Assembly: GCA_030628225.1 (NCBI GenBank)
Contig: DAOVRJ010000054.1
Location: 1-11,511 of the forward strand
From: Candidatus Zixiibacteriota bacterium
GTDB lineage: Bacteria > SM23-81
Direction: 5' to 3'
Length of the DNA: 11,511 nt
Numbering within the stretch: position 1 is the stretch's first letter; every line of letters begins with the position of its first letter. The notes under the pieces were generated by a model. That model was not told where the DNA came from and did not search any database. It was given only the letters and a program-made list of their open reading frames with translations. Positions 10 through 11,511 of the stretch are shown here, piece by piece. A program made the translations under genes and the position numbers.

Positions 10-3000
10 CTACTCGGTGTATCCCAGAGATTTTAATTGCTCCCTGGTAGCCTCATCGATATCCCTTTGCTGAGATGCCACCGCCTCGCCCTGGGCCTGG
101 GCCAGCTTTTCCTCCAGACGCGGCCGCAGCAGATCCAGCACATCCTGATGCTGCTGAGCCAGGTTCCTTTTCTCCAGAGGATCTTCCAGCAGATGGAACA
201 GGGATGTTGAGGGAAGCCCGCGGGGATTGTTCTGGTTGGCCTCGATGAGTTTCCACGTCCGGGTGCGCAGAGAGTGGATCACATTGCCCTCGTGATCCTC
301 CTCGGAGAAGACATCCTGCACACCGGCCCAGGAACGGCCCGTCCATCCCAGGAAGCTCTCTCCCTGCATGGAGGGATGGGGCGGGATGCCCGCCATGGTC
401 AGGATGGAGGGCGCGACGTCCAGACAGCGTACCATCCGGTTATCCGTGGTGCCGGCCGCCTTCTGATGGGGAAGCTTGACGATGAGCGGCACGTGGATCT
501 GCTCCTCGTAAAGTGTAGTGCCGTGCCACCAGCCACCGTGTTCGTAAAACTCCTGGCCGTGATCCGAGGTAAGAATGATCAGCGCATCATCGTACAGGTC
601 GTTGTCCTTCAGCCATTGACACAGTTCTCCCACTGCCTGATCGACAAAGCGCACCTCCCCGTCATAGGTCTCGCTGTACTCTCCGGCCAGGCTCGGATGG
701 GGCCGGGGATTGCTCACCCGGGCGTAGCCAACTCCGTTGTAAGGATGGACGAAGTAGGGATCATGAGTCTCCATGTAGTGAATGAACAAGAAGAAACGGC
801 CGTTTTGTAGTTTCTCCAGCCAGGAGAGGGCGTTCTTGTTGACCACCTGGGCGTCCTGGTAGTAGTGGTACACGTGCTTGGCCTTGGAGAAGAAGCGCTC
901 CCGGACCAGTCTTAGCTGGTTGTATAAGGTGAGCTGAAAGCCGGATTCCGGTGAGAAGAAGAAATAGCGCGGTTTCAAGAAGATATACTCGTCGAAACCC
1001 TGTCCGAAATTGAAGATGGGAGCGATGTTGATGTTGTTGGCGAATCCCAGGGCGAAATATCCCTCTGCCGTCATCTGCTCCGCCACCGATACCACCGCGT
1101 CGGGAAGCATGTCCGGTTTGTAGATGGCTCGATGGGAGGATGGATACAGAGAGGTCAACAGGGTGGCCGTGGACGGACGGGTCCAGGAGGACTGGACGAA
1201 GTAATCCTGGAAGAGGATGGCATCGGTTGCCAGGGCGTCGATGTGGGGACTGGTCTGCGTCTCATAGCCGTAACAGTGAAGACGGTCGGCCCGCAGGGCA
1301 TCCACCATGATCAGGATCACGTTGGGCTTTTCTTTCAGGGCAATGGGAACGCCTTCCGAGAGGGGTGCTCGCGGCGGGCGGGAGGCCAGCCAGATCCCGC
1401 CGGCCACCAGGCCGGCCACCAGCACCATGATCACGAAAGCCACCAGGGAGCCGGCCACGGTCGTCAGCCGGCGCCAGGAGGTTTTTTCCAGCAGATGACG
1501 CAGCAGCAGCCGGGCCAGGATAAAGACGACCACGAAAGCAAAGAGCAAGAGAATCTGATAGGGAAGCCGAAAGGGCTGTTCCAGGAGGATATCGCGGACA
1601 ATCCGAAAGCGGGCCATGACGAAAGCGAAGAGGGCGAAGATGATGGACCAGTAGGTGGCATAGCTTCGCGCCGGGGTTGGCTTGCCCCAGAATAGGGCGC
1701 TCAGGATCCCCACTCCCAGGCCCAGCATGCCACCGATGATGGCATAGAGCGGACCGTACAGCAGGGGCGCGTAAAACAGAACCCATCTCTCGGGCAGGTG
1801 CGGCCTGGTCAGGATGATGATCACCGCCTCGACGATGCCCAGCAGAGCCCCGGCCAACAGGCCGGAGAGCAAGCCCGTCTTGAAGTGGACGAGAAGTTTC
1901 CGGGGCCGGCTCAACTTCACGCCTTCCTCGGGGACTCCGACCGTCAGCGTTTCCGCGTCCTGTTTCTGGAGATGGAGGAACTTCGGTTTGTAGCCGCCTT
2001 TTCTGGCCCAGAGGAAAAAGACACCGCTGAGGGTCATGGCCTCTGCGGCCCAAAACCCAAGGGCCGCAGAAAGGATCGCCTGAGAGTGTCCCAGGTGCCT
2101 GCCCAGGACCAGGGCCTGAACGATCTCCCGGGCTCCCTCTCCGGCCATGGTGGGGGATATCAACGTGGCGAAGATCTGTATGGAGGAGCCGAAGGTGACC
2201 AGCCAGAAGGACGCTCCCACCACTCCCACGGCCAGGGCGGTGAAGAAATACATGACTGCCGTGGTGAAGTGCCCGAAGAAGGCGAAGAGAGCGCAGGTCA
2301 CCAGCAGTCCTTTCTTATGTTTGTAGGCGGCGGCGGAGTGGTTGACCCGATTCACGTACTCGCGGATCTTTCCCTTGGCCGGCAGAGGCACCAAATTGAT
2401 AAAATACTGGATGGTACCAGGGTAGAAAAGGGCCAGAAAGAAGGCCAGGATAATGCCCGTGGCAAAGGGCACGGTAATGGCCACGGTGATGCCGGCATAA
2501 TCCCCCAGCAATTTGTATCCGAAAGGCAGAGCCACCAGAAAAGTCAGGAATATGCCCACGAACCCTAAGACCTTGTCGATGGCCAGGGCGGCCGCGCTTT
2601 CTATGCCGCGTTTGCTGAAGCGAGCGGCATCATAAAGCCGGTAGCCATCCAGGCCGATGGTGGAGGGCATGAAAGTTCCCAGGAAGCGGCCGATGAGAAA
2701 TGTTCCTATAATATGTCCGAAGGGAAAGCGCATTCCCTGGCCTATCAGCAGCAGGTGCCAGCGAAGCATATTCCCGAAGACGCCCGTGAATTTGATGCAG
2801 GTGGCCAAGATGGCGAACAGGAGAAACGTGCTCAACACGATCTTGGGCAGGTAATCCCTGATAGCCGAGACGGTGCTGATGTGCACGATGCGCACCTGAC
2901 CTCGCTGGCCGGAGACCAGCTGGACGTCCCTGGTCTTTTCGATGCCCGAGGTGTCCATGAAGGGAAGGACCTTGCCCACCAGCAGGGTCAATTTGCCTTT

Positions 3001-3306
3001 CAGGCTGGGAGTCAACCGCACGGTTTTTCCGTTATCAAGCTGAATTTGCGGCCCGATGTCCAGAATTCCTTGCTGACCGTCGGTGGTGAACAACGTCTCT
3101 CCGGCCATCACCTTAACCGTTGTCTGGTTGGGCAGGACAACCGCGATCTCGTCCTTAACGGCGAGCTTGTGGGTGAAAAGCAAATAGAACGCCCCGATGG
3201 TGATGACCACTTTGATGATGCCGGTGATGATGCTGCGCCGACGAGGTGGGAGATCTCTCCACGACTTCCTCATTCGCGACAGTATGGACATCGATTCTTC
3301 GGCCAT
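10..3306 (-). CDS. Flippase-like (LPG-synthase TM, UPF0104) membrane protein fused to a C-terminal sulfatase-fold/AP-superfamily domain
   Basis: This 1098-residue protein appears to be a fusion. Helix 1 spans about residues 25-45. Residues about 46-150 form a soluble, strand-rich insert. Residues about 153-435 match the lysylphosphatidylglycerol-synthase TM family (the MprF flippase half), with a GRFLGTFMPSTIGLDGYRL segment near 206-224 and MAGEGAREIV near 387-396. About five more helices follow (477-499, 510-541, 550-568, 582-606, 616-642). A sulfatase-fold domain starts near 660. It has metal ligand D669 (MVDALRAD), candidate nucleophile T709 (SWTRPSTA), THDP at 847-850, D915-H916 (SDHG) and H928. 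Thr replaces the Cys of formylglycine sulfatases, so phosphotransfer or phosphodiester chemistry outside the membrane is more likely than sulfate release. It ends in LKSLGYTE. A GGGAG ribosome site lies 4 bases before the ATG. It sits 29 bases downstream of the preceding phosphohydrolase gene, so the two probably share an operon. The substrate is unknown; membrane lipid headgroups are an inference. Confidence 0.88.
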   Translation of the reverse strand: MAEESMSILSRMRKSWRDLPPRRRSIITGIIKVVITIGAFYLLFTHKLAVKDEIAVVLPNQTTVKVMAGETLFTTDGQQGILDIGPQIQLDNGKTVRLTPSLKGKLTLLVGKVLPFMDTSGIEKTRDVQLVSGQRGQVRIVHISTVSAIRDYLPKIVLSTFLLFAILATCIKFTGVFGNMLRWHLLLIGQGMRFPFGHIIGTFLIGRFLGTFMPSTIGLDGYRLYDAARFSKRGIESAAALAIDKVLGFVGIFLTFLVALPFGYKLLGDYAGITVAITVPFATGIILAFFLALFYPGTIQYFINLVPLPAKGKIREYVNRVNHSAAAYKHKKGLLVTCALFAFFGHFTTAVMYFFTALAVGVVGASFWLVTFGSSIQIFATLISPTMAGEGAREIVQALVLGRHLGHSQAILSAALGFWAAEAMTLSGVFFLWARKGGYKPKFLHLQKQDAETLTVGVPEEGVKLSRPRKLLVHFKTGLLSGLLAGALLGIVEAVIIILTRPHLPERWVLFYAPLLYGPLYAIIGGMLGLGVGILSALFWGKPTPARSYATYWSIIFALFAFVMARFRIVRDILLEQPFRLPYQILLLFAFVVVFILARLLLRHLLEKTSWRRLTTVAGSLVAFVIMVLVAGLVAGGIWLASRPPRAPLSEGVPIALKEKPNVILIMVDALRADRLHCYGYETQTSPHIDALATDAILFQDYFVQSSWTRPSTATLLTSLYPSSHRAIYKPDMLPDAVVSVAEQMTAEGYFALGFANNINIAPIFNFGQGFDEYIFLKPRYFFFSPESGFQLTLYNQLRLVRERFFSKAKHVYHYYQDAQVVNKNALSWLEKLQNGRFFLFIHYMETHDPYFVHPYNGVGYARVSNPRPHPSLAGEYSETYDGEVRFVDQAVGELCQWLKDNDLYDDALIILTSDHGQEFYEHGGWWHGTTLYEEQIHVPLIVKLPHQKAAGTTDNRMVRCLDVAPSILTMAGIPPHPSMQGESFLGWTGRSWAGVQDVFSEEDHEGNVIHSLRTRTWKLIEANQNNPRGLPSTSLFHLLEDPLEKRNLAQQHQDVLDLLRPRLEEKLAQAQGEAVASQQRDIDEATREQLKSLGYTE

Positions 3307-3335: not shown

Positions 3336-5027
3336 TTATTCGATGTAGCCTAATGACCTGAGCCGTTCCTTGATCTTCTGGCTTTCCTGTTCCGAGTAAG
3401 TTTCCTCCTGGTCGCCCTCCTGGTCCAGGTCGGCTTTAACGTATTCCACCGGGTTGCGCTGCAGGAGTTCTTCGCTGAAGATCTCTCTCAGAACTTTGCC
3501 GTCCATATCGTCGGGCACGGGTAAGCCCATGGAATATAGGACCGTGGGTGCGATATCGGCGATGTTGGCCCCTTGAATTTGCCTGCCCTGTTGGATCATG
3601 CTGCCCCGGGCGATGAAGATCCCGTTGGAGCGGTGGAAACCCACGGGAAGATGTTCTGCGGAGCGGATGATCTTATGATCGCCAAAAAGCTGTCTCCCCA
3701 GATAGGCGTAGTCTCTGGCCACGAAGATCAGATCGGGGGCGAACTGGGCCTGTGGGCCGCTGTAAATTTCCTCCTTGAACCAAACCTGATCTACCACCTG
3801 GTTTTTTGTCCATGGATCGCGCAGCTGGAGAAGCTTTTCCTTGATCAGCTCCCTGAGCTGCTGGTATTCCTGGCCGGGATCTACCAGGCCGAACCCATCC
3901 CTTTTGACGTTGATGAATATCCCCTGGGTGGGTATGCTGACGAAAAAGGCCTTGGTGCGTTCCCAGTCGATGGCGCTCTGCACGTCCGACTTAAAGCTGG
4001 ACCGAGTGCCCCGGATTTTGTTCCTCACCATCCGTTGGATGTTCTCCGGGAGCAACTTCTTCATCCACGGTGACTCGCCGATGTTCATGGCCGTGCAGAA
4101 CAGTTTCTTGCTGATGGCCTGGCCGCGCTTTAATCTCAACAGGCCCAGCCGGGCCAGGTAGGTGTTGACGTTGATCCAGGCATGGGTGGAGCCGAAGCCG
4201 TGATCGGACATGATGAACAGCTGGGTCTTCTGGTCAAGCTGAGCCACCAGCTGGCCCAGCATCTCATCGAAGGTGGCAAAGCACTCGCGGATCTTCTCCC
4301 GGAGTAGAGCGGCTCTTTTTGTGGCGTACAGCTGGGTCTGGGGATCTATGTATTTCCAGAGAAGGTGCTGGATGCGATCGGCGAAGATGAAGACGATCAT
4401 AAAGAAATCCCACTGATGCTCCACCATCAAGTGAAAAAAGGCATCTCGCCGTTTTTGGAGAGAGTAAAGGATTTCCTGGAGGAAGGCCAGGGCATCCTCC
4501 AGGGCGTCCACGTCGTATTTGGGGATATCTATATTGACCACGAAGTCCCCGATGGCTTTCAGAAGCTGTTCCTTGAGCTCTGCTGGACTGGTGTATGTGG
4601 ATTCGCTGTCTGGGGTGAGCAGCCCGGAGATGCAGAACCCGTTGACCTTTTCCGGGGGATAGGTGATGGGCACGCTGACCAGGCCCACTTTTTTCGAGTG
4701 GTCGGCGAGGATATGCCACAGCTTTTTGCTTCGAAGAGATCTGGAGTTGACCAGAGGAGCCCGCGGGTCTCGCAGGAACGACTCCCGAAAATCATAGATG
4801 CCGTGTTTGCCGGGATTCTTGCCTGTAACGCATGTAGACCAGGCAGGGGGAGTGGTGGCGGGGATGGTAGAGGTCAGCTCGCCAGATGTTCCCTGCTCCA
4901 TGATTTTGCCCAGATTCGGCATGAGGCCGTCTTCGATCCAGGGCCGGAGCAGGGAAAAAGTTCCGCCATCCAGTCCCAGAAGGATGACCCTTTTTCCCGA
5001 ATTTGTCTTGGTATCTGTGGCGCTCAT
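3336..5027 (-). CDS. AP-superfamily phosphohydrolase (COG3379-like type I phosphodiesterase), no visible signal peptide
   Basis: This 563-residue enzyme has the alkaline-phosphatase/nucleotide-pyrophosphatase fold. Visible metal-site and catalytic residues are D20 (LLGLDGG), nucleophile T59 (ATTPPAWST), D217 and H221 (FADRIQHLLW), D275-H276 (SDHGFG) and H465 (VGFHRSNG). This is the usual two-metal set of the family, so hydrolysis of a phosphodiester or phosphomonoester is likely; the substrate is not readable. The N-terminus is polar (MSATDTKTNSGK) with no signal peptide or helix, so it looks cytoplasmic. After the catalytic core (about residue 510) comes an acidic, low-complexity linker (525-550) and the tail RLRSLGYIE. 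AAAGGA lies 9 bases before the ATG. It is followed after 29 bases by the membrane fusion gene. It is paralogous to the next gene upstream, which has a Tat lipoprotein signal instead. Confidence 0.88.
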   Translation of the reverse strand: MSATDTKTNSGKRVILLGLDGGTFSLLRPWIEDGLMPNLGKIMEQGTSGELTSTIPATTPPAWSTCVTGKNPGKHGIYDFRESFLRDPRAPLVNSRSLRSKKLWHILADHSKKVGLVSVPITYPPEKVNGFCISGLLTPDSESTYTSPAELKEQLLKAIGDFVVNIDIPKYDVDALEDALAFLQEILYSLQKRRDAFFHLMVEHQWDFFMIVFIFADRIQHLLWKYIDPQTQLYATKRAALLREKIRECFATFDEMLGQLVAQLDQKTQLFIMSDHGFGSTHAWINVNTYLARLGLLRLKRGQAISKKLFCTAMNIGESPWMKKLLPENIQRMVRNKIRGTRSSFKSDVQSAIDWERTKAFFVSIPTQGIFINVKRDGFGLVDPGQEYQQLRELIKEKLLQLRDPWTKNQVVDQVWFKEEIYSGPQAQFAPDLIFVARDYAYLGRQLFGDHKIIRSAEHLPVGFHRSNGIFIARGSMIQQGRQIQGANIADIAPTVLYSMGLPVPDDMDGKVLREIFSEELLQRNPVEYVKADLDQEGDQEETYSEQESQKIKERLRSLGYIE

Positions 5028-5178: not shown

Positions 5179-7185
5179 TTACAGGAGAGCCTCTCCTGTC
5201 ATCTCCTCCGGCTGAGGGATTTCGAAGTGAGCCAGGACGGTGGGAGCCATGTCGATGATGTTCGGCTTATCCTTGGCCAGCTTTTGGTTACAGATGATGA
5301 TCCCCGGAGTGTCCTGGGTGTCGGAGGCGGCGTGATCTCCGCTCCATTTCCTGGTGTTGTCGGCCATCAGCTCTTTGGGTATGCCTCCCAGGGTGGTTTT
5401 CCAGGAGGTGCGATATCCATCCCTGAAGCCCAGACGGATGTCAGGAGCTTCCTGCAGATGTTTTCCATGATAGATGGAGTGGCCCTTGTGGGTTTTTAAC
5501 ATGACCTGTTCGCCTGTTTTCGGGTCGCGGAACTCTTCCAGCCCCCGGGCGATTCTGTCCACCACATCTTCGCACTCTCCATATGGAGAGACGATCCCCT
5601 GTCCCTCACGGCCCTCCAGATTGATATAAACCTGGCCCGTTCCCAGAGAGTAAGCCTGGGTTTGCTGCCAGTTCACCTCCTCGAGGAACTCCTTTTTGCT
5701 GTAGCTTTTCCCGTTCCTCAGGGTCATGAACCCATTTTGGACCAACCAGGAGTTCACGTGCAACCCCCTGCGGAAGCTATGGAAGCCGTGGTCCGAGAGG
5801 ATGATGAGCATATCATCCTGGCTAACAGCGGCCATAACCTGACCCACAACATGATCCATCTTCTGGTAGACCCGCAGGAGAGCATCTCCGTACTGGGCGG
5901 CCAGCTGGTCATCATAGCGGGGGTGTTTGGAGTCCAGCAGGCGGTAGAACATATGGGCGGCCCGGTCAGTGGCCGTGAAGACTGAGATGAACAGATCGTC
6001 GTTCCCCTTTTGGAGTTGGGCCAGGGTCATTTTCTCCCGCCAGTCCATGATGGAGAACATCTCCTCTAAAAAGACCTGCTCGCCGATTTTCTCGGAGTTC
6101 AGAGCTGAGGTGTCATGCACCCAGCCCACGGTCTTGAAAAGCCCATGGGTTTTGGCCAGCCGATGGGAGAAATCCGTGGGGGTGGAGATGGGAATATAGG
6201 GATCCCTGGGATCATAGCTCAGAGGCGAAAGATACAGGCGCACCTCGGGAGAGGTCTGAATGACGTAAAATCGGCAGATGGCCTTGGCGGTGAAGTGAGC
6301 GGTCATCTGAAATTGAACGGTGAACCACGGGCTCCAATGTCCCTCTTGTACTGAGTGTTTTTGATCTTGGAGCTGAATCCGGACCGATTTTGAACGCGAA
6401 TCTGGGGTGCATCGCAGCGGTGTTTTTAAGCGCGTCCTCCCTTTGCCGGCGATGTCCAGCGGTCCCTCGATAGAGGCTTTTAAGAAAGAGCCCGATGGCT
6501 GAAGTTTGAACAGCTTGCCGCCGGCGATGCTCTTGCCATTTTCTTTCCGGGAAAGGTCCGTGGCCAGGTAGAAGAAGGTGCTGTTTGTGCCCCGAAGATC
6601 CGGAGTGCCCAGGGCCGCAAGCACGCGACCCTTCTTGATGTGATCCGGGGGAAAGGAATAGGGCAGGTTGAGCACGGCGCTGCGCACTCCTGATTCCCCG
6701 GCCAGCACCCAGAAGGATCGGCCGTCCCGGTATGAGGTTCCGCTGGGGGGTTTCACCAACCGGCCCTGGGCATCGAATTCCGGGTCATCTGTCCGGCCAG
6801 TGGCCAGATTGGGTAGATAGGTGCGGGGATCTCTCTTGATTAGGTCGAAGATGTTATGTTCTCCGGGATTGGTCCCTGTGGCGAAGGTGGACCAGGCCAC
6901 CGGGGAGTTGGGTGGGTTGGTGGAGCCAAGATGGGCGTAGTATCCCGCGTCGACCAGGCTCTGCATGTGAGGAAGCTTGTTCTGTGACGCCCAGCTCTCG
7001 AATAAACTCGGCTCGACCCCGTCAAACCCAAGGATGATCAGCCTCTGCTTTGCGCTCGGCGAGCTCTTTTGGCCGCAGCCTAGCAGAAAAGGAAATTGTC
7101 CCACGCTTATGGCGGCCAGGCTGGCCCTGGCCGTTGTCTTCAGAAAATCCCTGCGTTTTATAGCGCCCTTTTTTCGTTTTGGCAC
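5179..7185 (-). CDS. Tat-exported lipoprotein, AP-superfamily phosphodiesterase/phosphohydrolase
   Basis: This 668-residue protein starts with GTG at 7183-7185; GAGG lies 5 bases upstream. The N-terminus has a twin-arginine motif (R11-R12-D-F-L-K), a short hydrophobic stretch and a lipobox FLLGC with Cys37. That predicts export in folded form followed by lipid anchoring. The AP core reads D55 (ILGFDG), Ser94 at the nucleophile position (PPNSPVAWST), D407 and H411 (TATDRAAH), D465-H466 (SDHGFH) and H618 (SGDHAA). Between the first half of the core and the DRAAH segment, about residues 205-330, lies a strand-rich insert absent from the 563-residue neighbour. It may be a carbohydrate- or substrate-binding module, which is inference. 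It stops right after MTGEALL and so lacks the LGY tail of its neighbours. The substrate is unknown. Ser instead of Thr as nucleophile is compatible with phosphatase chemistry. Confidence 0.87.
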   Translation of the reverse strand: MPKRKKGAIKRRDFLKTTARASLAAISVGQFPFLLGCGQKSSPSAKQRLIILGFDGVEPSLFESWASQNKLPHMQSLVDAGYYAHLGSTNPPNSPVAWSTFATGTNPGEHNIFDLIKRDPRTYLPNLATGRTDDPEFDAQGRLVKPPSGTSYRDGRSFWVLAGESGVRSAVLNLPYSFPPDHIKKGRVLAALGTPDLRGTNSTFFYLATDLSRKENGKSIAGGKLFKLQPSGSFLKASIEGPLDIAGKGRTRLKTPLRCTPDSRSKSVRIQLQDQKHSVQEGHWSPWFTVQFQMTAHFTAKAICRFYVIQTSPEVRLYLSPLSYDPRDPYIPISTPTDFSHRLAKTHGLFKTVGWVHDTSALNSEKIGEQVFLEEMFSIMDWREKMTLAQLQKGNDDLFISVFTATDRAAHMFYRLLDSKHPRYDDQLAAQYGDALLRVYQKMDHVVGQVMAAVSQDDMLIILSDHGFHSFRRGLHVNSWLVQNGFMTLRNGKSYSKKEFLEEVNWQQTQAYSLGTGQVYINLEGREGQGIVSPYGECEDVVDRIARGLEEFRDPKTGEQVMLKTHKGHSIYHGKHLQEAPDIRLGFRDGYRTSWKTTLGGIPKELMADNTRKWSGDHAASDTQDTPGIIICNQKLAKDKPNIIDMAPTVLAHFEIPQPEEMTGEALL

Positions 7186-7329: not shown

Positions 7330-8162
7330 TCAGTAGATATATCCCTGCGCTTTGAGCTGCTCCCTGATCACCGGATCTATCTTTTGCTGGGGATGGGTGA
7401 CTATCAGATCAGCCACCTCATCTACTCCGTAGGTTTTCAGCAATGCCTCACGGAGCTCTTTCTCCTTCCCGGATGCGACGTCGATTGTTCTTACAGCCCC
7501 TGGTTCTTTTACCTGGAGGAGATTTTGTTTCTCCCCCGGGTCGGTCAGAAGGTGATACAGCTCCTGGGCACCATCTCGTTCACAGATCAGCTTGTACCCC
7601 CCGTGGCGATATCCGATAAGGTGTACTCCTCTCTGGGGAGAGTTCGTCTCGATGCAGGTCGGGAAGTTGGGGGGGAGGTGTTGTCCGTATTCAATTTTTC
7701 CAGGCCCTGGTAGAATCCGGCGCGCCAGGGTTCGGCGATGGCGTAGGTAAAATAGCCCTATGTCCGCAAAGCCTCAACCAGAGTGACGTGGTAGCTGTCC
7801 AGATCGAGAGCCATCATCCGCAAACCCAGCTGATAGGGGTATTTGCCGGTGATCATGCTGGGCACGGAGGCGCGTGTGTAGGTGGCCTGGGAGATGGATT
7901 GGGAGAAGAGGGCGGCCTCTCGGGCCAGGGCGTCGATGGTGGGGGTGTTGACTCGCTGGTAGCCACTGCATCCCAGATGTCCCCCCGGCAGCGAGTCCAT
8001 AATGATCCACAGGACGTTGGGGTGGGATGGTGCCGGGTTGGGGTCTCTGAGCAGACAAAAAACGGCCATGGCGATGAGCAGAATCAAAAGCCCGACCCAG
8101 ATTAATTGGGATCCTCCATGTGATTTTATCTTTTTTACTCGATGGAGGGGTTCAGTAGACAT
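7330..8162 (-). pseudogene. Decayed sulfatase-fold membrane-anchored enzyme (tandem copy of the intact upstream gene)
   Basis: The intact 5' part encodes 134 residues: an N-terminal anchor helix (about 19-37), metal ligand D56 (WIIMDSLPG), candidate nucleophile T96 (TYTRASVPS) and GKYPY. An in-frame TAG at 7758-7760 then stops it. Homology continues straight past the TAG (GYFTYAI, then GFYQGLEKLNT). Near 7680-7700 it jumps into another frame, which encodes a C-terminal section with GYRHGGYKLICE, ELYHLLTDPGEKQNLL and the end EQLKAQGYIY, stopping with TGA at 7330-7332. Compared with the intact neighbour, about 210 residues are missing, including the SDHG metal site, so no active enzyme can result. 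The ATG at 8160-8162 overlaps the neighbour's 3' end by 11 bases, which implies former translational coupling. An assembly error is the main alternative. Confidence 0.85.
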
Positions 8163-9627
8163 ATCCCAATGCCTTGAGCTGCTCCTTGGTTTGCTCATCG
8201 ATTTCTTTAAGATCTTTTTCGGTCACGGTCAGGTCAGCCAGCTGTTTGATGTTTAACAGATCCAACAACGCCTGCCGCATCTGTTGTTCTTTTTCCCAGG
8301 CGGCATCAAGGGCCTTCTCTGGGGTTTGATCGATGGTGGCCGACTCAGGCAACAGGCTGTTTCTTTCTCGCGGGTCCGTCCTCAGATCATATAGTTCGAC
8401 CCTGTCGTTGGCCAGATCATAGATGAGCTTGTGGCCCTGATGGCGTAGTGCCAACAGATGAAATTTCATGGTCGTGCCCCGGTGGGTCTCGGAGATGCCG
8501 GGCAAATTGGGAGGGGCATCGCCCTCGATGAAGGAACGTAGGCTCTGGCCATCGCAATCCTCCGGTGCCTCGAGGCCGCAGTAATCCAGGACGGTGGGCA
8601 TGATGTCGATGTTCCTCACCTGACCATGTATCTTCTTTTTTTTATTCCTTGAATGAGGTGGTTTTATGATGATGGGGACCCTGACCATTTCATCATACAC
8701 CGTCATGCCATGGTAGTACTTTTGATGTTCGCCGAAGGCCTCCCCGTGATCGGAGTTGAGCACAATCAAGGTGTTGTCGTACAACCCCATTTTTTTAAGC
8801 TTGGCCATCAGCTTCCCTATTTCCGCGTCTACATAGGCGATTTCTGCATCGTAGAGATTGATGAGGTGTTCCTTGTCCAGAGAGGTGAGCCTTATCTTTT
8901 TCTGGTTCAGTAAGATGAGGGTGGTGATACTGCCGTTGTAATGTCCAGTGCCGTTCCTCATTTCATCCCTTTTCTTTGTCGCCCTGGCCTCCAGCTCCTC
9001 CTGGGGGATCTTCACATATTCGGGCTCGTAGAGTTTGATGAACTCCTCGGGGGGTTCATAGGCAGCGTGTGGATCCCAGTAATAGAGCCAGGCGAAAAAC
9101 TTTTGGTCTTTGCATTCCTCTAAGACCTGGATGATTTGCTCTGTGCGTTCCAGGGTATTCAGGTTGGAGGGGCCGGCCCTGTTGAAGCCCTGATAGAAAC
9201 TCTTGGACCAGAGCTTGTTGGTGACGGAGGTGACATATCCGTCTGCGGAGAGAACCTCCGCCAAGGTGGTGTGCATGGAGTCCAATTCTCCACCCAATGT
9301 CCGAATCCCCACGGAGTAAGGATACTTGCCACTGACAATGCTGGGCACCGAGATGCGGGTCCAGGTCCCCTGAGCGATGGCCTCCATAAATACCGAGCCG
9401 TCTTTGGCCAGGGCATCGATGTTGGGCGTATGGGCCCTTCGGTAGCCGGTACAGCCCAGGTGGTCAAATCGCAGAGAGTCCATGGTGATGAACAGCACGT
9501 TGGGCGGACGATCTTCCTCAACAGGCACCCGGAAGACCAGATAAAGAGCCAGCGAGGCCAGCACCAGCAATGCCGGTATTGAAAAATACACCCCTTTTTT
9601 TCTCTTCGCGCTCATGAGATTCTCCAT
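8152..9627 (-). CDS. Membrane-anchored sulfatase-fold (AP-superfamily) enzyme with Thr nucleophile
   Basis: About 491 residues. One hydrophobic helix near the N-terminus (about 13-33) follows a basic stretch (MSAKRKKG), giving an anchor with the catalytic domain outside the cytoplasm. The sulfatase core shows D50 (FITMDSLRFDHLG), T90 at the Cys position (GTWTRISVPS), DPH at 185-187, D293-H294 (NSDHGEAFGEH) and H306 (YYHGMTVYDE). A C-terminal sulfatase subdomain (RHQGHKLIYD, ELYDLRTDPRERN) and the tail EQLKALGYVY follow. Without Cys or Ser in the CxPxR context, a formylglycine sulfatase is unlikely; phosphodiester hydrolysis or headgroup transfer fits better. Start choice: ATG at 9625-9627 has AAGGA 5 bases upstream. 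ATG at 9613-9615 has GGAG 6 bases upstream and is equally possible, changing only MENL. The next gene downstream is a degenerate tandem copy. The 247-base gap upstream suggests its own promoter, though I cannot locate one. Confidence 0.87.
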   Translation of the reverse strand: MENLMSAKRKKGVYFSIPALLVLASLALYLVFRVPVEEDRPPNVLFITMDSLRFDHLGCTGYRRAHTPNIDALAKDGSVFMEAIAQGTWTRISVPSIVSGKYPYSVGIRTLGGELDSMHTTLAEVLSADGYVTSVTNKLWSKSFYQGFNRAGPSNLNTLERTEQIIQVLEECKDQKFFAWLYYWDPHAAYEPPEEFIKLYEPEYVKIPQEELEARATKKRDEMRNGTGHYNGSITTLILLNQKKIRLTSLDKEHLINLYDAEIAYVDAEIGKLMAKLKKMGLYDNTLIVLNSDHGEAFGEHQKYYHGMTVYDEMVRVPIIIKPPHSRNKKKKIHGQVRNIDIMPTVLDYCGLEAPEDCDGQSLRSFIEGDAPPNLPGISETHRGTTMKFHLLALRHQGHKLIYDLANDRVELYDLRTDPRERNSLLPESATIDQTPEKALDAAWEKEQQMRQALLDLLNIKQLADLTVTEKDLKEIDEQTKEQLKALGYVY

Positions 9628-9632
9628 GTTTG

Positions 9633-9637
9633 TCCTT
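9633..9637 (-). promoter_or_regulatory. Ribosome binding site for the sulfatase-fold gene
   Basis: AAGGA on the minus strand lies 5 bases before the ATG at 9625-9627. A second Shine-Dalgarno-like GGAG (9622-9625) serves the alternative ATG at 9613-9615, four codons downstream. The two sites decide between two starts. A still longer open frame beginning at 9705 has no ribosome site. Confidence 0.5.
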
Positions 9638-9669
9638 GGTCCCGGCTTTTCCTTGCCGCTGCCGTGGAA

Positions 9670-9691
9670 GGATACAGGATTTGAGGATTTA
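9670..9691. repeat. Short degenerate tandem repeat (ggatNNN-type units of 7-8 bases)
   Basis: Three units, ggataca, ggatttga and ggattta, run head to tail in the leader region of the sulfatase-fold gene. The match is imperfect (7, 8 and 7 bases). I list it because three other seven-base repeat tracts lie in the same gap. Confidence 0.4.
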
Positions 9692-9714
9692 GGGCTCCAC
9701 CCCACCTGGTTTTA

Positions 9715-9874: not shown

Positions 9875-11104
9875 TCATCCAGCAGCCTGGTCCTTGGTCC
9901 ACCGCTGATGTTCCTTGGCCTGATGCACGAAAGCCTGCAGGCGGGTCATGGCCGTGTTCTCCTCCTGGCCGTCGTAGGCTATGTTCAACCAGGGGATGTT
10001 GTTGAAGTCCTCGCGGAATTTCTTGGAAATGGCCGTTACCACCAGGCCGGGCATGCAGGTGAAAGGCATGGCGTTGATGATTCCCGAGGCGCCTCTTTTG
10101 ATGTAATCGATGGCCTTGCCGATACTCAGAATGGCCTCTCCGCCGAAGGAGGGGTGCATATAGGGAGCGCTGTACTCCACAACCGTCTCCGTGTCCGGAT
10201 CCTCGGCGTTGAGCAGCATGTGGTGGAGGGGTTTAGCCAGCATATGCTCCATCCACTTCTGAGCCCCGTTCTTGAGACGAGCCTTAAGAGCATCGACACG
10301 CTGGCCCCGGTCGCGGCTGTGAGCCAGGTACATATAGTTCGTGTAGAAGATCCACTCGCTGATGGGCGCCACCCAGGCCTCGCCCCCCAAGCTCTCTATT
10401 TTACGAACTAAATTGTTGTTGCAAAACCTGTTAGAGCGTATATAGATCTCCCCGACGATGCCGATGATCGGCTTTCTGACCCGCCGGTCGATGGCGATCT
10501 CCGCGAACTTGCGCCGGATAACCCGCATGGTCTTCCAGATGGCCGTTATCCTTCCCTCGATGGCCTGGGAGATCAGGCTCAGACATTCTCCGTAAACCCT
10601 GTCTGTCTGGCCGGGGATCAGCTCATACGGGCGAGTCTCCCGGGCCAGCTTCTCCAGAATGTCGGTGGCCACCATGCCCAGCCAGCCGCGGATCTGGAAG
10701 TTGATGTTCAGCCCTTTGGTGCTGCTGTAGGAGTCTCTCGAGTCGGGGGAGAGGATCATGACCTGGGGCAAGCCCACCCTGTCTAGAGTGATACGTTGGA
10801 GCTGGCAATATTGCCCGAACCGGCATGGTCCATGGGCAGTGGGTATGAAAAAAGCGGCGCGCTCGGGGACGAAATCGGGCGATTGGGTCTTCTTGACAAT
10901 GTCGCCGGAGGTGGCGATGAAGGGAAAGCATTCTTTTCCCGAGGTGTGTTTCTTGGCCCAGCGGAGCGTCTCCTCGTCGGACTCCGGCAGCACCTCTGCG
11001 TCAAAGCCGCACGCTCGCAGGGCAGCCCCGACGGCAAAGGCGTGATCGGCCATCTGCGGAATGTAGATGGTCCGATCCAGTCGTTTGTTATTCGGTTCTG
11101 GCAT
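9875..11104 (-). CDS. 2-hydroxyacyl-CoA dehydratase/activase-related protein (COG3581-like)
   Basis: This 409-residue protein resembles the C-terminal, HgdB/BcrC-related part of large 'CoA-substrate-specific enzyme activase' proteins, here as a separate gene. Recognisable stretches are GKECFPFIATSGD (57-69), PTAHGPCRFGQYCQLQR (88-104), SEWIFYTNY (249-257), GGEAILSIGKAIDY (321-334) and MPFTCMPG (346-353). Cysteines at 32, 59, 94, 100, 174, 228 and 350 include candidates for an Fe-S cluster; family members are oxygen-sensitive iron-sulfur proteins. The reaction is not established for this subfamily. No signal peptide is present, so it is cytoplasmic. Start choice: ATG at 11102-11104 has GGGGAG 10 bases upstream and overlaps the preceding gene by 17 bases. 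A GTG at 11135-11137 would add 11 residues but lacks a ribosome site. The overlap suggests it is translated together with its COG3580-like partner. Confidence 0.82.
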   Translation of the reverse strand: MPEPNNKRLDRTIYIPQMADHAFAVGAALRACGFDAEVLPESDEETLRWAKKHTSGKECFPFIATSGDIVKKTQSPDFVPERAAFFIPTAHGPCRFGQYCQLQRITLDRVGLPQVMILSPDSRDSYSSTKGLNINFQIRGWLGMVATDILEKLARETRPYELIPGQTDRVYGECLSLISQAIEGRITAIWKTMRVIRRKFAEIAIDRRVRKPIIGIVGEIYIRSNRFCNNNLVRKIESLGGEAWVAPISEWIFYTNYMYLAHSRDRGQRVDALKARLKNGAQKWMEHMLAKPLHHMLLNAEDPDTETVVEYSAPYMHPSFGGEAILSIGKAIDYIKRGASGIINAMPFTCMPGLVVTAISKKFREDFNNIPWLNIAYDGQEENTAMTRLQAFVHQAKEHQRWTKDQAAG

Positions 11105-11511
11105 GTAACTCTTGCTCCCCTGAGTGAAGGTCTCCACGTTTGGGTTTCAGGACAGTCTCCGTCTGCCTACGGGGAATGGCGGGCTTGCGCTCCAGACTGT
11201 CGAAGAAAGCCTCGCACCGGGTGATCACTCCGGCATCGGCGCTGTGCTCATCTACCTCTAGCTGCAGATACGGTTCTCCGGCCATCCGGTGGTGCAGAAA
11301 ATGAGAGATGAAGGAATCAGGTCCGCACTTGAAGTTGGTGATGAAAATACCGTGCAGTTGGGGGATGCTCTTGATCATCTCGCCGGCGGCTAAAATGCGC
11401 TGTCCGCTTTTCCAGAACATAGAGGCCAGCCCGGGCAGAATCTCATCGGTCTCCAAAGGCAGAAAATCCATGGGGATGGCCAGGACGCCCATGTCGCGGA
11501 GCTTCTTGGGC
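11088..11511 (-). CDS. C-terminal part of a COG3580/DUF2229-like acyl-CoA dehydratase activase-related protein (5' end outside the window)
   Basis: The open frame continues to the window edge, leaving 140 visible residues and a TAA stop at 11088-11090. The in-frame ATG at 11492 is internal: the preceding codons (KKLRD) join smoothly into MGVLAIPMDFLPLE. Family-typical segments are ITNFKCGPDSFISHF, with a Cys that may bind an Fe-S cluster, and the closing LEVDEHSADAGVITRCEAFFD. Proteins of this type usually act or are annotated beside COG3581 proteins and BadF/HgdC-type ATPases, sometimes all fused into one long polypeptide. Here the two parts are separate, overlapping genes. The last 25 or so residues (basic, with no conserved pattern) overlap the start of the next gene. 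The function is unknown at the reaction level. An activase ATPase gene may lie just beyond the window. Confidence 0.8.
   Translation of the reverse strand, partial: PKKLRDMGVLAIPMDFLPLETDEILPGLASMFWKSGQRILAAGEMIKSIPQLHGIFITNFKCGPDSFISHFLHHRMAGEPYLQLEVDEHSADAGVITRCEAFFDSLERKPAIPRRQTETVLKPKRGDLHSGEQELHARTE
11115..11120 (-). promoter_or_regulatory. Ribosome binding site for the COG3581-like gene
   Basis: GGGGAG on the minus strand lies 10 bases before the ATG at 11102-11104, inside the 3' end of the preceding gene. It favours this ATG over the GTG at 11135-11137. Confidence 0.5.

Follow-up and report, generated by a model that had tools for sequence, protein, structure and literature searches.

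An MprF-type flippase domain joined to a predicted extracytoplasmic alkaline phosphatase-superfamily domain recurs across phyla of mostly uncultured bacteria

We analyzed a stretch of 11,511 nucleotides from Candidatus Zixiibacteriota bacterium (contig DAOVRJ010000054.1 of assembly GCA_030628225.1), referred to at its full length as the window. On its minus strand, from position 3306 down to 10, lies an uninterrupted open reading frame (ORF) of 1098 residues with an ATG start, which joins an MprF-type flippase domain, a five-transmembrane (5TM) domain and an alkaline phosphatase (AP)-superfamily domain in a single chain. The pairing of flippase and AP domains recurs across several phyla of mostly uncultured bacteria, and comparative evidence gives good support for a coupling of the two halves. 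The protein consists of known parts in an undescribed and evolutionarily persistent combination, and a search of the literature, limited to open-access papers, found no characterized protein with this architecture. From these comparisons we infer its chemistry and substrate, and give about an even chance to the proposal that it is an inner-membrane flip-and-transfer enzyme, which would attach a phospho-group taken from a lipid to a lipid or glycan of the cell surface.

Pfam searches of the fusion protein (10..3306, minus strand, as are all window features given below) matched LPG_synthase_TM (PF03706) at residues 160–415 (2062..2829; 48.8 bits, E 8.7e-13, cut-off 33.4) and Sulfatase (PF00884) at residues 661–974 (E 1.3e-48), the latter within an AP domain spanning residues 659–1098 (13..1332). 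All 31 members of the flippase subfamily match PF03706. An AlphaFold2 model built from 43 natural relatives (mean pLDDT 85.7, pTM 0.65) contains a first transmembrane helix (TM1, residues 21–44), a beta-rich insert between TM1 and TM2 (residues ~46–144; 2875..3171) that occurs only in some relatives and is extracytoplasmic by hydropathy, flippase helices at 158–434, the 5TM domain (residues 467–641; 1384..1908) and the AP domain from ~660. Short helix pairs lie at 196–210/217–231 and 367–383/392–405 of the flippase domain, as candidate counterparts of the two re-entrant helix pairs in the first MprF transmembrane domain (TMD1). The five further helices are predicted at 467–500, 509–539, 545–573, 581–607 and 618–641, and the 5TM domain carries the conserved motifs GxxxGxxxG..E, YG and FRxxRDxxxE. 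The chain ends in the tail EQLKSLGYTE (13..42).

The AP domain is predicted to be extracytoplasmic. Family-averaged hydropathy and loop charges place the N-terminus inside, with 7 Lys/Arg residues before TM1, followed by an odd number of spans: a basic cytoplasmic linker at ~437–480 precedes the last five, after which the AP domain lies outside. This topology was drawn from prediction, the positive-inside rule and the published layout of MprF TMD1 (PMC8131360).

To examine the active site, 52 AP domains of 5TM-AP relatives, fused as well as unfused, were aligned. Thr709, at the nucleophile position (S-W-T-R-P-S-T; 1180..1182), is Thr in 52/52 sequences, and D669, R672, D674, D915, H916, E919 and H923 are likewise invariant, while H848 and H928 are kept in 51/52. 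Asp915-His916 (559..564) are predicted metal ligands together with Asp669. The PF00884 match, a VIA Z score of up to 42.7 in fold comparison and the invariant D669, D915 and H916 place the domain in the AP superfamily. Helices 467–641 directly before a predicted outward AP domain with T709 correspond to the 5TM + AP architecture of EptA, LtaS, YejM and BcsG. EptA, MCR, LtaS and YejM use a Thr nucleophile (PMC7576196).

The initial annotation had described one 1098-residue chain of a flippase half, about five extra helices and an outward AP domain with a Thr nucleophile. Pfam, AlphaFold2 and the alignment bear out the domains, the helices and the Thr, and the topology prediction places the AP domain outside; the cytoplasmic AP domain that had been named beforehand as the contrary outcome did not appear in it. 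That annotation gave no strand, and overlooked the beta-rich N-terminal insert and the C-terminal tail.

A first search with a profile of the flippase half retrieved ORFs of the same size (980–1084 residues) in seven other genomes from six families. When GTDB genomes were then scanned, using the full alignment and our own hidden Markov models, the number of distinct fused loci rose to 26, distributed over Fermentibacteria, Myxococcota/Deltaproteobacteria, Hydrogenedentes, Chloroflexia and the lineage of the window itself. With this many separate loci, an assembly or frameshift artefact is rejected; the fusion is genuine, ancient and recurrent. One further candidate (locus L104) was rejected as a fusion, since its long N-terminus has no Pfam match and probably stems from an ORF wrongly extended upstream. 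An origin from phage or plasmid was also rejected: viral contigs held no relative, and plasmid matches covered the AP domain only, none over 80% of the query.

Split versions of the system keep the same order. In the sister genus (genome G001), the two parts are separate overlapping genes, the 5TM part starting 17 nt upstream of the flippase TAA in another frame; the contig breaks after the 5TM start, and a different contig carries the AP part at its end. Separate adjacent flippase and AP genes in this order were also found in Zixibacteria (L100), in LCP-89 (L107) and, with a 4-nt overlap, in L122. Also in the sister genus (L027:5904-6791), the block of five helices that precedes the AP domain seems to be tandemly duplicated.

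Flippases that are fused to a 5TM-AP protein or encoded next to one fall into a single clade (100/99), to which generic PF03706 proteins do not belong; the separate, unfused flippases are nested inside it. The fused and unfused labels require at least four changes, on the starred branches of the flippase tree, and therefore joining and splitting happened several times. Fused and unfused proteins are also intermixed inside one group of the AP tree.

The flippase subfamily (E < 1e-25, clearly separated from the next match) is present in 11/386 genomes, and the close 5TM-AP subfamily (>500 bits; next match 378 bits) is present in exactly the same 11. Both thresholds were set where the scores leave a gap, and some rows of the profile came from three of the 11 genomes. 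The probability of a random match is about 10^-21, a value that is indicative only, as it ignores relatedness. Two of these genomes, G060 (L096) and G094 (L135), carry the flippase and 5TM-AP genes on different contigs, and such unlinked pairs, together with the many 5TM-AP proteins that have no linked flippase, would suit a protein that is fused but uncoupled, its flippase domain merely anchoring, stabilizing or sensing lipid while the AP domain acts alone. We consider this very improbable, because co-occurrence is 11/11 even where the genes are unlinked, the flippases form a dedicated clade, and repeated joining and splitting keeps gene order; all three point to a shared task of the flippase and AP domains. 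The functional link between the halves postulated in the initial annotation is supported by recurrent fusion, adjacency and co-occurrence.

The recurrent pairing suggests an undescribed way of decorating surface lipids or sugar-lipids. In the mechanism that we propose, a lipid, or a glycan linked to one, would be moved or equilibrated across the cytoplasmic membrane to the outer leaflet by the MprF-type domain. The outward 5TM-AP part would then load Thr709 with a phosphorus-containing headgroup of a membrane lipid, helped by metal bound at D669, D915 and H916, and pass this group to a lipid-linked or surface glycan. On the inner side, cytoplasmic phosphodiesterase (PDE)-family enzymes and glycosyltransferases of families GT2 and GT4 from the same operon may prepare the substrate. 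We infer that flipping and AP chemistry would serve one substrate, that the reaction would be transfer rather than hydrolysis, and that group and acceptor would be those named above. By analogy, the plausibility of flip-and-transfer is supported by MprF, a promiscuous lipid scramblase (PMC11980842), and by BcsG, a 5TM + AP enzyme that decorates exopolysaccharide with phosphoethanolamine (PMC11470070).

Several observations weigh against this proposal, among them the 5TM-AP proteins without a linked flippase. In sequence, EptA and LtaS are further from the AP domain than arylsulfatases, choline sulfatase and phosphonate monoester hydrolases are, and all EptA/LtaS family cut-offs lie far above its scores. 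EptA/MCR models gave ~12–28 bits against cut-offs of 493–1250 (NF028537, 28.1 versus 500; NF007160, 26.9 versus 561), the LtaS model NF053595 19.8 versus 970 bits, and the YejM/LapC/PbgA model NF038282 24.9 versus 825 bits. For the 5TM part, the best VIA match was the PbgA 5TM domain (172 residues aligned, Z 6.8, root-mean-square deviation 6.1), which is within noise, and Foldseek returned no match under E 0.001; among the families compared, the 5TM domain has no solved relative by sequence and no clear one by fold. In addition, operons of two genomes (G222 and G080) carry sulfate-activation genes, considered below. Profiles of 2, then 31, flippase domains found no solved MprF-type relative by sequence.

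The nearest solved relatives of the AP domain, both by sequence and by fold, are sulfatases and phosphonate monoester hydrolases, with VIA Z scores of up to 42.7 to S1 sulfatases and ~34 to YejM/PbgA. Hydrolysis would be served by the same fold and residues as transfer, the best matches (such as phosphonate monoester hydrolase, choline sulfatase and S1 sulfatases) are hydrolases, and YejM, itself a 5TM + AP protein with the active-site Thr, has Mg-dependent phosphatase activity (PMC7576196). The main rival to flip-and-transfer is a phosphodiesterase or phosphatase acting after the flip, either to take off a phospho-headgroup or to trim a lipid-linked glycan, in carrier recycling or glycolipid maturation; we regard this as the less likely reading. 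The likeness to EptA and LtaS claimed in the initial annotation held for the Thr and the 5TM + AP layout; it did not hold for the AP sequence, which is closer to the sulfatase/phosphonate monoester hydrolase branch. Despite failing the family-model tests, the fusion protein would work most like EptA and BcsG.

The sulfatase-like sequence does not make the protein a formylglycine (S1) sulfatase. In that signature, C/S-x-P-S-R, the first position is always Thr among the 52 AP domains and the last is never Arg, being F, T, V, I or A instead, and formylglycine chemistry is ruled out because of this. The phosphonate monoester hydrolases, choline sulfatase and S1 sulfatases, although closest in fold and sequence, differ from the AP domain also in being soluble and in forming formylglycine from the Cys or Ser.

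A sulfate-ester role by another route could be fed by 3'-phosphoadenosine 5'-phosphosulfate (PAPS), with the AP domain handling sulfate esters on a flipped lipid within a pathway for sulfated lipids or glycans. The G222 and G080 operons encode ATP sulfurylase, adenosine 5'-phosphosulfate (APS) kinase and a PHP protein related to 3',5'-nucleoside bisphosphate phosphatase, and PDE-APS kinase-PDE loci lie elsewhere in the genome of the window and in its sister. A Sulfotransfer_3 sulfotransferase divergently adjoins the fusion at one further locus (L083:7302-8321, minus strand; genome G279). The linkage is nevertheless confined to 2 of ~26 fusions plus this one sulfotransferase, APS kinase is common anyway (11/14 control genomes), and Thr in place of Cys/Ser excludes formylglycine sulfatase chemistry; sulfo-chemistry as the function of the fusion protein is improbable.

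As for the PDE-APS kinase loci themselves, the PDE set with APS kinase is conserved in L076 (576-4691), L077 (14106-18500), G000:C270 (L176) and G001:C9 (L177). ATP sulfurylase accompanies it in L076, L077 and L177, and the PHP protein in L076 and L077. The set shares an operon with the fusion in two genomes, and lies apart from the fusion in the window's genome.

Like MprF, the fusion protein combines a PF03706 flippase domain with additional membrane helices and an enzyme for headgroups in a single chain. The enzyme of MprF, however, is a cytoplasmic tRNA-dependent aminoacyltransferase, whereas here it is a predicted extracytoplasmic AP domain; no aminoacyl-phosphatidylglycerol synthase match was found with Pfam, and the C-terminus has the sulfatase fold, so that the protein is not MprF proper. 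AglD-type archaeal proteins also fuse an MprF-type flippase domain to a glycan-synthesis enzyme (PMC5898192), but that enzyme is a cytoplasmic GT2 glycosyltransferase instead of an outward AP domain. EptA and MCR share the five membrane helices followed by an outward AP domain with a Thr nucleophile, yet EptA has no flippase domain, and the AP domain here is sulfatase- and phosphonate monoester hydrolase-like in sequence. The 5TM + AP layout with an active-site Thr is common to EptA, LtaS and YejM (PMC7576196), and YejM (also PbgA or LapC) aligns over residues 460–1077 of the fusion protein, although neither YejM nor LtaS is fused to a flippase and the scores here are far below their family cut-offs. 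BcsG is likewise a 5TM enzyme with an extracytoplasmic AP domain, acting on exopolysaccharide during export (PMC11470070); it lacks a flippase domain and belongs to a different operon, and is likened here by architecture.

If true, the union of an MprF-type scramblase and an EptA-like enzyme would, in some bacteria, answer the question of donor supply directly and physically. EptA, LtaS and BcsG depend on lipid donors present in the outer leaflet, and by what means these reach it in sufficient amount is largely open. Whether a flippase half feeds a transferase half would become testable with one purified protein, and the strict co-occurrence offers a route to assigning a function to one of the many uncharacterized PF03706 subfamilies. 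More tentatively, and with a less than even chance, the loci may represent a widespread undescribed system in which one protein moves and decorates its substrate, with cytoplasmic PDE partners and, in some lineages, a sulfate-activation branch; its products would be glycolipids or exopolysaccharides of a new class, substituted with phospho- or sulfo-groups.

Directly upstream of the fusion gene, the window encodes a 563-residue type I phosphodiesterase-family protein (3336..5027; PF01663, E 8e-40) with an LGYIE tail. It is a conserved neighbor in relatives, and a sequence search of the PDB gave no match. N-terminus analysis found no signal peptide, as in the other PDEs with an LGY tail, whose domain starts at residue 2–27; because they lack a signal peptide, these enzymes should be cytoplasmic. 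The system would thus have cytoplasmic PDEs on one face of the membrane, the outward AP domain on the other, and the flippase between them. The next gene (5179..7185) encodes a 668-residue phosphodiesterase-family protein (PF01663, E 9.9e-32), exported, with a Tat-like N-terminus (RRDFLKTT), and its ortholog adjoins the flippase gene in the sister genus.

Another contig of this genome, overlapping the last 84 codons of the fusion gene at 95%, gives the downstream continuation. It carries a 541-residue PDE, a GT2 resembling polyprenyl-phosphate-sugar synthases and a GT4, and G001 has the same order. In relatives, the recurring order is PDE-[flippase]-AP-PDE-(GT2)-GT4, sometimes with Wza/Wzc or XrtA-type genes. 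The second copy of the fusion-gene end, at 95% identity (G000:C121:1-252; L029), is probably due to strain variation or an assembly break.

A second AP-superfamily protein of the window (8152..9705; 517 residues; PF00884, E 2.4e-44) has the sulfatase fold and an N-terminal signal anchor. Beside it lies a decayed paralog (7333-8087), of which only the parts matching residues 46–181 and 398–517 of the intact protein remain, with internal stops. Upstream of the AP cluster, two consecutive ORFs (9875-11510, minus strand) weakly resemble CoA activase/2-hydroxyacyl-CoA dehydratase proteins (DUF2229 and HGD-D, below cut-off).

The C-terminal L-x-x-L-G-Y motif of the fusion protein occurs on most AP and PDE proteins of these loci. 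The same tail, as '..RL(E/K)xLGYL' (MGYL in L178), ends a C-terminal extension of ~24+ residues in the APS kinases of L076 (4032-4691), L077 (14106-14699), L177 (8735-9370) and L178 (7589-8212), although the folds are unrelated. Judged from these sequences, it is a putative portable C-terminal tag shared by AP, PDE and APS-kinase proteins.
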